Shown piece by piece: positions 26,309-40,783 of a DNA stretch of 40,783 nt. The number at the start of each line of letters is the position of its first letter. Position 1 is the stretch's first letter. The position numbers and the translations under genes were made by a program. The notes below the pieces were generated by a model. It was not told the origin of the DNA. It saw only the letters and a list, made by a program, of their open reading frames with translations, and made no database searches. The stretch comes from Acidimicrobiia bacterium (GTDB lineage: Bacteria; Actinomycetota; Acidimicrobiia; Actinomarinales; Actinomarinaceae). The stretch spans positions 1 through 40,783 of the forward strand of contig JAONAZ010000001.1 in NCBI GenBank assembly GCA_028376655.1, written 5' to 3'.

Positions 26309-26382
26309 GGGCGCTTAGCTCAGTCTGGCAGAGCGCTTCCCTTACAAGGAAGAAGTCACAGGTTCAAATCCTGTAGCGCCCA
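26309..26382 (+). tRNA. tRNA-Val (anticodon UAC)
   Basis: A 74-nt cloverleaf. The acceptor stem is GGGCGCT/AGCGCCC, the D stem GCTC/GAGC, the anticodon stem CTTCC/GGAAG with loop CTTACAA (anticodon TAC at 26343-26345), and the T stem ACAGG/CCTGT with loop TTCAAAT. The discriminator base is A. CCA is not encoded, so it must be added enzymatically. Confidence 0.97.
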
Positions 26383-26422
26383 CAAGGGTTTATATTCTAT
26401 AATGTTAAATCTGAATTAAAAA

Positions 26423-27022
26423 TCAAAAAATATTTGGAAAGATTTTTTCAATAGCTTCTTGGTATTTAGAGAATTGGTCATATGGCCGATCTACGTAGTT
26501 TATTATATTCTTTGAGTGTTTATCATACTTTTTATACTCAACAACTACGTGTTTGGACTCTTCAATTGAAATATCCAATTTCCTATTAATTGATGCTTGA
26601 TATTGTATATCTGTATCAATAGTAATTCGAGCATCTTTATATTTAAAGTAGTCTCTACTGTAACTAACAAAAATTGTTGGATAATATATTTTTCCAAGAT
26701 AAAAAATTTCTTCAACATCATCAAAAGACTCAATATCTAATTTTTCTGAAATTTTTATTTTTCCTTGTGAAGTATTTTCTTTTATTTCTTTTGTAAAACT
26801 GGGAAAATTGTTATAACTTCGAATCCGAATTTTGAATTTATCTACATCATAAAGTAGTTGATTTTTATAAATATCAAAATTTATAGTATCGAAATAAAGG
26901 GACTTTATTTTTCTACCCGTATAAAGTTTTGTAAAATCTTTAATGTTATTTGATAAAAAAGTATTAAACTCAGAAACTCCAAAAACCAACTTGAACTCTT
27001 CTCTTGATTCAATCTTTCTCAT
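26423..27022 (-). CDS. VTC-domain (polyphosphate polymerase-type) protein
   Basis: 199 aa from ATG 27022, chosen because AGGAGGG lies 8 nt upstream. A longer frame starts inside the CotH gene. The fold is the VTC/CYTH-like tunnel domain: IKSLYFDT, DKFKIRIRSY, SFTKEIKENTSQGKIKISEKL, VSYSRDYFKYKDARITIDTDIQY and VVVEYKKY place the alternating basic and acidic residues of the tunnel. Yeast Vtc4 makes polyphosphate from ATP. Bacterial stand-alone versions are less well studied. It overlaps the CotH-like gene by 14 bp, and with DUF4956 it makes a recurrent three-gene set. Confidence 0.85.
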   Translation of the reverse strand: MRKIESREEFKLVFGVSEFNTFLSNNIKDFTKLYTGRKIKSLYFDTINFDIYKNQLLYDVDKFKIRIRSYNNFPSFTKEIKENTSQGKIKISEKLDIESFDDVEEIFYLGKIYYPTIFVSYSRDYFKYKDARITIDTDIQYQASINRKLDISIEESKHVVVEYKKYDKHSKNIINYVDRPYDQFSKYQEAIEKIFPNIF

Positions 27023-29234
27023 AAATTGATCCCTCCTGAATGTAACTAGAGTTTGCAATGCATTCATTATTTGAAACCTTTAAGTAGCTTGGACCAAATT
27101 CTTGTTTTTTTCTGTATAAAAGAAAACAGGTTTGATTGTTTTCTCCTTTTAAATTTTTAATTGAAGTGTATGAACTATCTTTTACTGCAATAGCTGTTGT
27201 GGAATTATTAGAAACTAAGTTATCAATGTAGAGGGTTGAGTTTTCTCCGACCGAAACAGATTTATCACCACAATTATTTGTTATAACCGAATCGATTTTA
27301 TAAAAACCACCAGACAAATCTAGACAATCATTTCCTGCATTTTCAATAGAAAGATTATTGATGGTAATTTCTGAAAAATCTATATCTAAAGCATCACTAT
27401 GTGATGTTTTGATAATAATATTATTAATTTTCCCTTTACTTCTGATTATATTGACTGAATCTTCACAAAATGAATTTTCAAAAGTTATTGACTCTAGAAG
27501 CATATTTGATTCATAAAATGAAATACAACCTGTAAGTGAATTGAAATCTTGGATTGTGTTAATTTGATTTTCATCTAAGTTCGAATTTAAGTTGAAATTC
27601 CAGTAGTCCTGAATATTTTGTCCCATAACCAATATTTTTTGATTACTTTTTGTAAAATTTACACTTATTGTTTTATTAAATTCATCAATTTCAACACTAG
27701 GGTTATTGATAGCGGTAAGCTCGTTATTTCCGAATGAATATTTAAAAATTTCTTCTGTTTGATAACTATGATTTGGGTTTTTCATTGAATCTAAACTAAT
27801 CCCAAGTGTATTTTCTCTTTCAAAAATTAAATCTTGATCTCCCAACTCTTCATTTAAACATTTAAATGTTTGGTTAATGTTGCAATTTAGGTATATTTCA
27901 TTTAATGGATCGTAGAAATCAAATTCTGCTGATTCTTGAATCCATATTTTGTCTATATTTTCTATGTAGTTTATGTAGTTAACTTCTGAAGGTTTTTTAG
28001 TCGTGATTGTTTCTAAGTTGTTTTTAAATTTATCTAAATTCAATTTAACCTCCTCGACAGGCATCGTAAGATTTTTATCAAAAAGAAGATGTTGAAAATC
28101 AGAAGCACTTAACTCTACTTCCTGAAGCATCCTCTTGGCACTATCTATAAGACCTTGTGAAATTTGATAGTTGAATGCAGTTGGTACACTTGCTTCTTTG
28201 TCAAGGAATGTGCTAAAACCATCATAGTAAATTGGCTCAAAATTTTCGGAGATATTATCATAATAAAAAATTCTATTGTGATTTGTCATTGCATGAATTG
28301 ACCGTGTTGCTAGTAAGGCAGCGTCAAAAGCATAAATTCTTTCCTGATTAGTATTCAGAATTTCATAATTCATCTGCCTGTCAAAATCATAAGAGTAAAA
28401 CATAGACTTATTGAATTTCTCTAACGCTTTTAGAGAGATAAATAAATTTTGTTCACTTCTTTTTGCCCAGTATTCATTTTGAACTCTACCAAAAATCATT
28501 ACTTCGGAATTTTTTTCTGATGTTGGCTCTCCTGAATCAGTATTCCACCAATACCTTTCATTAACTTCAATAATTGGGCCTTCTCGATAATTAAAATACT
28601 CAATCATTTCTTTTGAAGCTTTTTCTTGAAAAATAAAAATACCTTGATAATAACTATTAATATTTACATTTACATAAGCAGATCGGGGGGAAATGAAGCC
28701 TAATTCTTCCAATAGAGCGGTAATAAATATTTCATTGTCATACTCTCTGGTTGTTGGAAGAAATAATTTAAACTTAGTTATACCCAATATGTTTCCTTCT
28801 TTGAGCTTAACGTCCATTGATGAAACTAAATTTTTTAAATCTAAGTGATCCATCCAATCGCCGTGAATTCTGACATCTGCTTTAAATGAACAAGTAAAGT
28901 CTTTAAAGGTGACCGTTACTATTGAATTAAATTTAGTCTTATATTTGTCTTCAATAAAAAATTCTCCGCTGATGCCGGATTTTATTAAATTGATATACCA
29001 TGCATTTGAGTCATTAATTTCGACCGACATATTAACAACGTCTGAAAATTTTTGTTTTTCATATTGATTAAAATCTACACCATTACAGTATGGAGTAATT
29101 TCGTCAGTTAGGATGTTTTCATTTTCAAATGATGTTAATTCGTTTTTTTGTTCATCAGATTTTTCAGAAAAAAATAAAATTGAAAAAAATATTATAGAAA
29201 CAGTTATATAGGTTAATTTAAATTGACTTATCAA
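27009..29234 (-). CDS. CotH-family kinase-like protein with C-terminal beta-helix
   Basis: 741 aa, TTG start. A signal anchor (about 6-23) is followed by an extracytoplasmic region. Residues about 115-360 form a CotH-like kinase fold: FKADVRIHGDWMDH, KFKLFLPTTREYDNEIF, LLEELGFISPRSAYVNVNIN, YYQGIFIFQEKASKEMIE and PIYYDGFST. Residues about 540-720 carry repeated I-x-N-L and V-x-N-x-x hydrophobic rungs with several Cys (SIENAGNDCLDLSG, ITNNCGDKSVSV) typical of a right-handed parallel beta-helix. CotH enzymes phosphorylate proteins. The beta-helix may bind a surface polysaccharide. It overlaps the DUF4956 gene by 17 bp. Confidence 0.8.
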   Translation of the reverse strand: MISQFKLTYITVSIIFFSILFFSEKSDEQKNELTSFENENILTDEITPYCNGVDFNQYEKQKFSDVVNMSVEINDSNAWYINLIKSGISGEFFIEDKYKTKFNSIVTVTFKDFTCSFKADVRIHGDWMDHLDLKNLVSSMDVKLKEGNILGITKFKLFLPTTREYDNEIFITALLEELGFISPRSAYVNVNINSYYQGIFIFQEKASKEMIEYFNYREGPIIEVNERYWWNTDSGEPTSEKNSEVMIFGRVQNEYWAKRSEQNLFISLKALEKFNKSMFYSYDFDRQMNYEILNTNQERIYAFDAALLATRSIHAMTNHNRIFYYDNISENFEPIYYDGFSTFLDKEASVPTAFNYQISQGLIDSAKRMLQEVELSASDFQHLLFDKNLTMPVEEVKLNLDKFKNNLETITTKKPSEVNYINYIENIDKIWIQESAEFDFYDPLNEIYLNCNINQTFKCLNEELGDQDLIFERENTLGISLDSMKNPNHSYQTEEIFKYSFGNNELTAINNPSVEIDEFNKTISVNFTKSNQKILVMGQNIQDYWNFNLNSNLDENQINTIQDFNSLTGCISFYESNMLLESITFENSFCEDSVNIIRSKGKINNIIIKTSHSDALDIDFSEITINNLSIENAGNDCLDLSGGFYKIDSVITNNCGDKSVSVGENSTLYIDNLVSNNSTTAIAVKDSSYTSIKNLKGENNQTCFLLYRKKQEFGPSYLKVSNNECIANSSYIQEGSIYEKD
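27031..27037 (-). promoter_or_regulatory. Shine-Dalgarno site setting the VTC start
   Basis: AGGAGGG on the minus strand, inside the end of the CotH-like gene and 8 nt before ATG 27022. It is one of the few strong ribosome sites in the window, as expected for an internal operon gene where most first genes are leaderless. Confidence 0.6.
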
Positions 29235-29862
29235 TTGAATACGAAACTATATCTTTCTCTTCCAATAATGTAATAATAGACTCTAATGTTTCTGAATTGT
29301 TTGATCTATACCTGTAAATATATGAATTTCCATCAAAAGATGTTTGGAACAGAGAGCTTGAATAATTATCTAGGGTGACTGCTTTGTTAGTTTGTAGTTT
29401 TAAAAATGAAAATTCTTCATTTTCATCTTTAAAAGAGATGAAAGAACTTTTCTTAGAAAAGTTTTTAAATAGTGCAATAAGAATAATTGCAACAATACAA
29501 AAACCTATAAAATTTACATATAAATTTATATTTGTATAAGAGACTATTCCACTGGCTATTAGTAGAAAATAGATTAATAACTCAACAGGGTTTTTAATTG
29601 GTGTTCTGAATCTAACAATAGACAATGCCCCAACCATTCCTAGTGAGAGTGCAATATTTGTAGAAATTGAAGATGTTATCACGTGTATAACTATTGGTAG
29701 AAAAATAAACATATAAAACATATACGTTGAACTCATGAACGACATCTCAGAAAAAAGATAAAATGCAAACCATAAAAAAAGAGAGACAGCTACTACCAGT
29801 AGCAATGTCATCAGCATCTCACTAGAAAAAGTCAAATCAAATCCAAAAAGGGAATAAATCAT
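29218..29862 (-). CDS. DUF4956 membrane protein
   Basis: About 214 aa. There are four predicted membrane helices in residues 15-140. The family signature IALSLGMVGALSIVRFRTPIKNPVEL lies in the middle, and a cytoplasmic domain of about 85 residues follows. I prefer the ATG at 29862. The ATG three codons earlier (29871) overlaps the TATAAT -10, which sits exactly 7 nt before 29862. DUF4956 genes commonly sit beside VTC-domain and CotH genes, as here. The molecular function is not known. Confidence 0.85.
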   Translation of the reverse strand: MIYSLFGFDLTFSSEMLMTLLLVVAVSLFLWFAFYLFSEMSFMSSTYMFYMFIFLPIVIHVITSSISTNIALSLGMVGALSIVRFRTPIKNPVELLIYFLLIASGIVSYTNINLYVNFIGFCIVAIILIALFKNFSKKSSFISFKDENEEFSFLKLQTNKAVTLDNYSSSLFQTSFDGNSYIYRYRSNNSETLESIITLLEEKDIVSYSIDKSI

Positions 29863-29869
29863 ATTATTC

Positions 29870-29877
29870 ATTATAGT
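29870..29877. promoter_or_regulatory. Overlapping bidirectional -10 elements
   Basis: The minus strand has TATAAT (29875-29870), 7 nt before ATG 29862. The plus strand has TATAGT (29872-29877), 6 nt before ATG 29884. The two elements share four base pairs, so only one polymerase can load at a time. Both transcripts would be leaderless. Confidence 0.55.
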
Positions 29878-29883
29878 CTAAGT

Positions 29884-30813
29884 ATGGAAACTGCTAAAAA
29901 GGCTAAAATTTTTATAGCCATATCAATATTTCTAATTCCTCTTATGGTAAATAATCAAAAAAGATTTTTTGATTCATTTCTTGAAGTATTTAATCCTGAT
30001 GAAGTATCTACTCAATTATTAATTGATGTGGCAGGTGATAGTTTAATTAATCCAGAGTTTTGTATAAGCCTAGAGAGCGACAATACAAGGAATATATACG
30101 ATAATAATTTTACTTTATTTTATGTGGTTGGACATGCTTATGGTGATGTAGATAATTACGATAAAGCTTTAGATTTGAATTTACTTGATTATTTTGATAA
30201 AAATATAACTGATAGAAGTAATTATCTAGTTTTAACTGGTGACTTCATAAAAAATGATACGCTTGAAAGCTTAATAGCTGCAAAAGATCAAATAGAAACA
30301 TCTTTTGATAACTACATGATTGCTCCAGGAAATCATGATTTTAGTGAAGATAACAACAACTATATATCTATCTTTAATAAGGATTTATTCTATACATTTG
30401 TTGATGATGTTTTACTAATTTCTGCAAATTTTAACAACACTGACTGGTTTCTAGATTTAGGTGACCAAGAAACTATTAACAAATTAATATCTGATTACAA
30501 CCCTAATCTTTTAATCTTATTTTCTCATCAAATATTTTGGTACGACCTTTTTGACGGAGTGAGGCCAAATAGTTTTGAAGGTTTAGAAAATATTGTAGTA
30601 AATAAATTTGAATGGATTGAAGATAAAGAACTACCCCTCATATCAATTGCAGGTGATTCAGGAGTTGCTCAGAATGAAATATTCTGCAGCATTTCAGAAA
30701 ATAAGTTATTTATAGCAAGCGGAATTGGCGGATTTGAAAATGACCACATACTTAAAATGTATATTCATAATTCTGAAAATATTTATTTTGAAAAGGAGTA
30801 TTTAAATAGATAA
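29884..30813 (+). CDS. Calcineurin-like metallophosphoesterase, membrane-anchored
   Basis: 309 aa. The signal anchor is at about 8-22. The metal motifs are VVGHAYGD (83-88, in place of the usual D-x-H), LTGDF (117-121), GNHDF (149-153), SHQ in LFSHQIFWYDLF and AGDSG in place of GHxH. The core GD and GNHD are intact, while the first and last motifs are variant, so metal content may differ. It is divergent from the DUF4956/CotH/VTC operon through the shared promoter, which suggests a common process, perhaps removing a phosphate that CotH adds. The substrate is unknown. Confidence 0.75.
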   Translation: METAKKAKIFIAISIFLIPLMVNNQKRFFDSFLEVFNPDEVSTQLLIDVAGDSLINPEFCISLESDNTRNIYDNNFTLFYVVGHAYGDVDNYDKALDLNLLDYFDKNITDRSNYLVLTGDFIKNDTLESLIAAKDQIETSFDNYMIAPGNHDFSEDNNNYISIFNKDLFYTFVDDVLLISANFNNTDWFLDLGDQETINKLISDYNPNLLILFSHQIFWYDLFDGVRPNSFEGLENIVVNKFEWIEDKELPLISIAGDSGVAQNEIFCSISENKLFIASGIGGFENDHILKMYIHNSENIYFEKEYLNR

Positions 30814-39699: not shown

Positions 39700-40783
39700 C
39701 TACTTTTCAAGAATCATAACTCTATACGATAGTAAAGTTTTTTCAGTTATTATAAAATTAGGTGGAGGTGTACATTCTTTGTTTAACCAGCAAAAACCTA
39801 GTTCTTTCCTTGGATCCTCTATGACTTTAACACCATACCCCCAAGTATTATCTTGAAGCACATACTCAATCTGTGGTGGGGAAATAACTTTTAATTTAAA
39901 AGAATAGTTTTCGGGGGAATAATTACGAATTAAAGGAGTGGATATTATTACTGCGAAAAGTAAGGTGTGTTTTAAGAATGTGTTACTAAACGCAATACTT
40001 GCCCTGACTGATCTAAATTCATCAAATTTTAAACAAATTGTCATAACTAATATTAAAAAGATTCCAATTCCGAATCTAATCGATGGTGCAGATACTGCCC
40101 AAAGAAGTAATAGTAATGTAACGTAAAAATAGGAATTTAAATTACTTACAAAAAACCTTTTTTTAGATTTAATCAAAAGACTTAGAAAAAAATAAATAAG
40201 TATTACCGATACCACTAAATTAATACCCACATAGTAATTTAAATATCTTTCATTCCATCTAAATAACCAGGTTATTGGACTTTCATGAAGAATATCATAT
40301 GCTGCATGAAATAACCTTAATTCATCACTTTGCCAATTAGAACTGTAACTATTAAACCAAGGTGAAGGAAGGCACGTAAATGTGAGTGGGTATATTAAAC
40401 AAGAAGTAATTAGATAATTTTTAAAAATCCATACACATCCAATTGAAAAATAAAAAAGTGTTGTTTTAGATAATATTATCTTCAGATCTTTTCTTATTAA
40501 AAGAAGTAATCCAAATATAGAAACCAAGCCAAAAAATCGAATTTCTGCAGAGAAGAGAATTAAAAATAGTATAAATAAGATATCTCTTTTGACTAAAGTC
40601 TTTTTTTCTATTAATTTTTGTACGATAAAAAAGTTAGTAATAAAGAAAAGTATTGCAAATGAATTGTCCTGTTTGCCAATTGTATCAATGTCAATAAAAC
40701 CATTTCTACCACCCTCAATTCCAAAATTGTCTAATAATCCATAAATTAATATCGAAACTGAAATTAGCTGATATTTAAAATTA
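39700..40783 (-). CDS. Polytopic membrane protein of glycan synthesis (5' end cut off by window)
   Basis: The frame is open from the stop at 39700 to the window edge, so at least 360 residues are present and the N-terminus is missing. An internal TTG at 40527 is not the true start, because hydrophobic coding sequence (DNFGIEGGRNGFIDIDTIG, then a helix) continues upstream. There are about eight membrane helices in view. WIFKNYLITSCLIYPLTFTC resembles the KN-x-x-x-SG-x-x-YP loop of the LIC_10190-type membrane protein family, and the C-terminal tail has two Cys (CWLNKECTPPP). It is probably a GT-C-like or polymerase-type glycan protein. The family call is tentative. Confidence 0.6.
   Translation of the reverse strand, partial: NFKYQLISVSILIYGLLDNFGIEGGRNGFIDIDTIGKQDNSFAILFFITNFFIVQKLIEKKTLVKRDILFILFLILFSAEIRFFGLVSIFGLLLLIRKDLKIILSKTTLFYFSIGCVWIFKNYLITSCLIYPLTFTCLPSPWFNSYSSNWQSDELRLFHAAYDILHESPITWLFRWNERYLNYYVGINLVVSVILIYFFLSLLIKSKKRFFVSNLNSYFYVTLLLLLWAVSAPSIRFGIGIFLILVMTICLKFDEFRSVRASIAFSNTFLKHTLLFAVIISTPLIRNYSPENYSFKLKVISPPQIEYVLQDNTWGYGVKVIEDPRKELGFCWLNKECTPPPNFIITEKTLLSYRVMILEK

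Follow-up and report, generated by a model that had tools for sequence, protein, structure and literature searches.

A VTC-CotH-DUF4956 cassette with a linked phosphoesterase and altered catalytic positions in its outer proteins in Candidatus Actinomarina

What might four small genes for a VTC-type polyphosphate polymerase domain, a CotH-fold protein, a DUF4956 membrane protein and a calcineurin-like phosphoesterase accomplish together in a streamlined marine actinobacterium? The question arises from a stretch of DNA, hereafter the window, that comprises the first 40,783 bases of a contig from a Candidatus Actinomarina genome (883 kb, 79% complete; G000), in which the four open reading frames (ORFs) are present at positions 26423-30813. 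The original prediction had named these families and proposed opposed kinase and phosphatase activities in a surface phosphorylation or polyphosphate system. The family assignments held: VTC, DUF4956 and Metallophos passed the Pfam cut-offs, and CotH was recovered by a leave-out profile and by fold. Both outer enzymes are degenerate, which suggests decoration of the surface sugar coat rather than an opposed kinase and phosphatase, and the cassette is best read as an accessory module of an envelope-glycan island. Comparisons within the order drew on 42 genomes, that of the window and 41 others of the same genus.

Active sites of the polymerase and the outer proteins

The VTC-type domain (26423..27022, minus strand; PF09359, E = 1e-14) is predicted to form a cytosolic protein of 199 amino acids. 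The longest ORF, with a start at 27067, is overcalled: ATG 27022 is preceded by the Shine-Dalgarno sequence AGGAGGG, gives an N-terminus that agrees with the copy in a second Candidatus Actinomarina genome (G037) and is the more likely start. In an alignment of 20 VTC sequences, the window protein keeps 18 of 18 invariant tunnel-family columns, and a profile of 20 VTC sequences matched Vtc4p (3g3q) with E = 3e-19. Positions separating polymerases from hydrolases were taken from an excerpt of PMC4641920; the residue mapping is our own and reached three of the four positions. Two of the three, R22 and K179, are basic as in Vtc4p, and the third, E24, is acidic as in the hydrolase AtTTM3. The retained tunnel columns suggest an intact enzyme, predicted to act as a polymerase. 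The DUF4956 protein (29218..29871, minus strand; PF16316, E = 1.7e-7, slightly above the cut-off) has four transmembrane helices predicted by hydropathy and a C-terminal soluble part.

The CotH-fold protein (27009..29234, minus strand), secreted or anchored, comprises 741 amino acids from a TTG start: a signal anchor, a CotH domain at approximately residues 44-415, a low-confidence linker and a beta-helix at 567-741. No Pfam family matched it at E <= 1. Initial CotH and phosphoesterase profiles of two rows each found no further relatives; the CotH profile was therefore re-seeded from another locus and, once iterated, picked up the window protein. With both Actinomarina copies left out of the profile, the window and G037 proteins were matched with E values of 1.9e-4 and 5.7e-7, respectively, among 4,662 ORFs. 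The structural model (mean predicted local distance difference test score, pLDDT, 64.7) contains two confident parts, of which the CotH part resembles Bacillus cereus CotH 5jd9 (Foldseek E = 1.4e-10; Z 22.2 over 297 residues, root mean square deviation (rmsd) 4.4).

In 5jd9, the Asp of the 'nfDg' motif lies 23 residues ahead of the metal-binding Asp of 'pWDyd', the same spacing as between D228 and D251 of Bacillus subtilis CotH, where a change of D228 (D228Q) or of D251 is described in an excerpt of PMC7821199 as inactivating. The column of this catalytic Asp holds Arg311 in the window, Gly in G037 and Asp in 20 of the 20 other aligned sequences; in another alignment, of 50 rows and read by eye, Asp or Glu occupies the position in all 47 other rows covering the catalytic site. 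Both Actinomarina copies retain the metal-binding N320 and D338 together with E204, R122 and G125. In the model, residue 311 sits just past a helix ending at 309, with N320 followed by a strand and D338 preceded by one, as in a kinase catalytic loop. The protein predicted as a secreted CotH kinase has the CotH fold, the metal-binding pair and an anchor; the catalytic Asp is absent from both copies.

The C-terminal domain of the CotH protein (27012..27536, minus strand) is a right-handed beta-helix of pectate-lyase/tailspike/epimerase-like fold. The model of residues 571-740, with block pLDDT mostly between 80 and 96, has as its structural neighbours a phage upper-tail protein (8egr, Z 20.1), the PL3 pectate lyase 4z03 (Z 18.4, 175 residues, rmsd 2.9) and alginate epimerases (Z ~17). 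This is the best-conserved part between the window and G037 copies, at 48% identity compared with 42% for the CotH part. It was found only in these two among 395 genomes of the class, and none was found in viral_contigs.

The phosphoesterase (29884..30813, plus strand; PF00149, E = 1.3e-5, above the cut-off) faces outward from an N-terminal anchor; such an anchor is also present on CotH, and the G037 phosphoesterase carries a lipobox-like LVFSYC. Its model (pLDDT 65.6, predicted template modelling score 0.71, no metals in the model) best matched GpdQ 2zo9 (Z 18.6, 213 residues, rmsd 3.4), with Rv0805 (3ib7) at Z 17.3. The alterations reported for the first and the last metal motif of this protein are real: both are conserved in G037, and the last also in a third copy, from genome G019. 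The window and G037 motifs read VVGHAYG and VVGHGYG, TGD in each, PGNHD and PGNHE, SHQIFW and NHQIFW, and AGDSG and SGDFG, respectively. GD is present in both complete copies, and GNH and HQIFW in all three. The Asp of DxH is absent (VGHAYG in the window and VGHGYG in G037; the G019 copy is cut before the first motif), as are the GHxH histidines in all three copies (GDSG, GDFG and GDYG). Following the ligand scheme of the superfamily, we take DxH and the last His to build the metal site that is lost. The remaining site, consisting of D120, N150, H215 and D258 in place of a His, could hold one metal.

Linkage, distribution and setting

DUF4956 and VTC occur in 2 of the 42 genomes of the order (G000 and G037) and the phosphoesterase in three (G000, G037 and G019). 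Both triad genomes carry the phosphoesterase, with the genes adjacent in each, an overlap with a chance of 0.0035 for 42 genomes. In the only other complete locus, that of G037, all four ORFs share a strand and overlap, in the order DUF4956-CotH-VTC-phosphoesterase. The window phosphoesterase is encoded on the other strand and diverges from DUF4956 across a gap of 12 bp, so that the four genes are not a single transcript there and a single operon of four genes was rejected. Given that the phosphoesterase stands at the other end in the window compared with G037, gene order has changed and linkage has been kept. Identity between the two complete copies is 33-48%, with conservation at the level of motifs, and none of the four ORFs is interrupted in either. 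The third phosphoesterase copy (G019, AG-333-M17; L010 5478-5993) is broken off by a contig end, for which reason its upstream neighbour is not visible; the remainder of that assembly yielded neither DUF4956 nor VTC. The view of the four genes as one unit is therefore upheld as regards linkage in both genomes and single-strand order in G037, and not as regards one transcript in the window. A TATAAT sequence stands immediately before the DUF4956 ATG (window 29862-29884); with the divergent phosphoesterase ATG only 12 bp off, leaderless transcripts are possible.

Comparison loci were sampled within Actinomycetota. Here, 80 DUF4956 neighbourhoods were retrieved and 79 counted, one (L114) being dropped because its DUF4956 match (E = 6.7e-4) was not recovered. 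As judged by profiles, the 79 loci comprise 39 full VTC-CotH-DUF4956 triads, 27 with VTC and DUF4956, 8 with CotH and DUF4956 and 5 with DUF4956 alone; VTC and DUF4956 are thus neighbours in 66. DUF4956 itself was present in 44 of 396 actinobacterial genomes sampled. VTC-CotH-DUF4956 is a common actinobacterial cassette, and all three families are contiguous in the window and G037. Among 137 proteins flanking the 39 full triads, no family was found in more than five, the most frequent being glycosyltransferases, histidine kinases and RsgI-type proteins; Metallophos was not among the 25 families listed for these flanks. The anti-sigma factor domain RsgI_M, present in 5 of the 137, may mark a triad regulator in some lineages. 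Two CotH-like domains per protein were observed in other actinobacterial triad loci (L102 8380-12123, L105 8389-12078), and two adjacent CotH genes in another (L144 8533-11519).

No relative of the phosphoesterase was detected by profile search in any of the 79 loci, and a search of the comparison loci for GD...GNH motifs gave no credible second case; wide linkage of this gene to the triad was rejected on these grounds. Its matches in the 395 class genomes numbered three, all Actinomarina, and those among 159 phylum genomes were confined to the window's own copy. Both matches in genome_contigs were Candidatus Actinomarina assemblies, and there were none in viral_contigs, plasmids or phages (DUF4956 was likewise not found in plasmids). 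The phosphoesterase is an Actinomarina addition to the triad, and its linkage to the triad in other genomes, for which the original prediction had suggested a neighbourhood analysis, is real within the genus (2 of 2 complete loci) and does not extend beyond it (0 of 79).

Genes for classical polyphosphate synthesis are scarce in the order, with PPK1 in 3 of the 42 genomes (G036, G028 and G013; L150 for G036) and PPK2 in none, so that this pathway is itself accessory in Actinomarina. Neither gene was found in any VTC carrier of the order, within a set of incomplete genomes in which the VTC carriers are 74-79% complete.

The GC content of the window drops from 0.41 to 0.28 at ~25.5 kb, past which a Pfam scan of the window proteins identified glycosyltransferases, a sugar epimerase and a DegT aminotransferase, among others. 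A tRNA-Val(tac) gene (26309..26383, plus strand) marks the edge of this low-GC glycan island and is directly adjoined by the cassette. The region fits a flexible glycan island of the fGI1 type of Actinomarinales, described in an excerpt of PMC7771536 as having 28% GC and small cassettes acquired at tRNA genes. Four of six boundary or GT2 stretches examined from other genomes (G021, G006, G028 and G016) show the RNR-GT2-tRNA-Val boundary without the cassette. No duplicated tRNA-Val end was found in the window, and a fresh insertion marked by such a repeat was accordingly rejected. In G028 (L155 12752-15178), a relative of window ORF 39700-40527 lies between the GT2 gene and tRNA-Val, a small insertion at the boundary.

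Interpretation of the cassette

The reading preferred here, to which a probability of about 0.4 is assigned, is that VTC and DUF4956 make polyphosphate and pass it outward, to be bound or processed by the outer pair of proteins on an envelope glycan. VTC would synthesise polyphosphate from ATP in the cytosol, and DUF4956, as its membrane partner, would pass or anchor the chain across the single membrane. The CotH-beta-helix protein may grip a surface glycan via its beta-helix, with the CotH fold serving as a platform for polyphosphate or nucleotide, or as an enzyme of changed chemistry, rather than as a conventional Asp-dependent kinase. The outward phosphoesterase, with one metal site left, might trim the phosphate chain or a diester link or act as a binding partner. 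Polyphosphate as the product, export by DUF4956, the glycan target and the roles of both outer proteins are what we infer as the best reading of the VTC residues, the VTC-DUF4956 adjacency, the transmembrane helices, the anchors, the likeness of the beta-helix, the scarcity of PPK, the island location and the association of the triad with Pel genes. A polyphosphate or envelope role, as originally predicted, fits the intact VTC tunnel and the glycan-island location. Several observations weigh on the other side. The cassette is rare (2 of the 42 genomes of the order), E24 of the window VTC is acidic, like the hydrolase AtTTM3, and no activity was found in the open-licence literature for any bacterial VTC-DUF4956 pair. 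Given that the triad genomes are just 74-79% complete, the absence of PPK is not proved. A shared beta-helix fold alone shows no function, and the lost catalytic residues could signal decay, though both copies are open and conserved.

The kinase and phosphatase pair, in which the phosphoesterase would take off phosphate that CotH had placed on a surface protein or glycan, now appears unlikely. Both folds are right, the CotH protein retains its metal-binding Asn and Asp and its Glu, and His314, which occupies an equivalent position in the two copies, could act as a base. A precedent is offered by POMK, which, according to an excerpt of PMC5142810, was long regarded as a pseudokinase, yet phosphorylates a glycan and keeps the needed catalytic Asp at an unusual place. 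POMK nevertheless itself requires that Asp (PMC5142810), whereas both Actinomarina CotH copies lack a residue found in 20 of 20 relatives, and D228Q kills B. subtilis CotH (PMC7821199). The loss of this Asp, together with that of the phosphoesterase ligands for one of two metal sites (the DxH Asp and both GHxH histidines), weakens the case for opposed activities. A somewhat better, if still doubtful, account makes both outer proteins scaffolds without catalysis, which would keep polyphosphate or glycan in place at the cell surface, in the manner of GAP50 and Vps29. These are phosphoesterase-fold proteins that act as scaffolds, neither is known to have activity, and both were among the structural matches of the window phosphoesterase (GAP50, 3tgh, Z 15.0). 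Catalytic positions have been lost in parallel in the two outer proteins of two divergent genomes, with VTC intact. Pure scaffolds would, however, be expected to lose the remaining metal-site residues too, and D120, N150, H215 and the carboxylate D258 could form one complete metal site, with N320 and D338 kept in CotH.

It seems very improbable that the cassette lacks a present function and is a selfish insertion in the island or one in decay: it is rare, patchy and next to a tRNA gene in a flexible island, but its four ORFs are uninterrupted in each complete copy, motifs are conserved at 33-48% identity, and linkage was retained through the change in gene order. Within the polyphosphate-glycan reading, a bolder version, which we regard as a long shot, would have exported polyphosphate supply the phosphate on the outer side of the cell, where there is no ATP. 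The Asp-less CotH, placed by its beta-helix, would move phosphate or polyphosphate to an envelope sugar, and the one-metal phosphoesterase would trim it. If true, this would amount to polyphosphate-driven phosphorylation of glycans at the surface, and the recurrent grouping of CotH, VTC and DUF4956 in bacteria would be explained.

Comparison with known systems

In an excerpt of Whitfield et al. (2020, PMC7112168), a CotH-PPP-DUF4956(-DUF4832) accessory group is described beside pelDEADAFG in streptococci, clostridia and bifidobacteria. The same three families are contiguous and lie beside polysaccharide genes in the window, where, by contrast, CotH lacks the catalytic Asp, a beta-helix is present, a phosphoesterase has been added and no DUF4832 was seen; no Pel-type family was found among the 20 window proteins scanned with Pfam. 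The NELoc-2 locus of Clostridium perfringens is described in an excerpt of PMC2879425 as holding a cluster of VTC, a predicted tubulin-like membrane protein and CotH. Its VTC and CotH genes stand beside a glycosyltransferase in an accessory locus, as in the window; the host is different, and the membrane ORF described as tubulin-like is a candidate counterpart of DUF4956.

At the level of individual proteins, the window VTC shares with the yeast VTC complex (Vtc4p, 3g3q, 8i6v, 7ytj) the tunnel domain, in which basic and acidic residues are conserved, and a membrane-protein partner. It differs in having no SPX domain and a partner that is DUF4956, not Vtc1-type. The Actinomarina CotH proteins share with the Bacillus spore-coat kinase (5jd9, 5jda) the fold (Z 22.2) and the metal-binding Asn and Asp; their catalytic Asp is replaced by Arg or Gly, a beta-helix is added, and they are not spore-related. 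The phosphoesterase shares fold and GD, GNH(D/E) and His motifs with the metallophosphodiesterases GpdQ and Rv0805 (2zo9, 3ib7), and differs in lacking the DxH Asp and GHxH histidines, in having one metal site at most and in being anchored N-terminally.

The VTC-CotH-DUF4956 triad is widespread, and no functional test of it was found in the open-licence literature; nor did we find there a report of a CotH lacking the catalytic Asp, of its fusion to a beta-helix or of a phosphoesterase linked to the triad. In the Actinomarina variant, the kinase and phosphatase chemistry is degraded, the polymerase is intact and the genus is nearly free of PPK, a combination that separates the parts of the system. 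The variant suggests that the supply of polyphosphate and the binding of glycan form the invariant core, which four small genes make testable.

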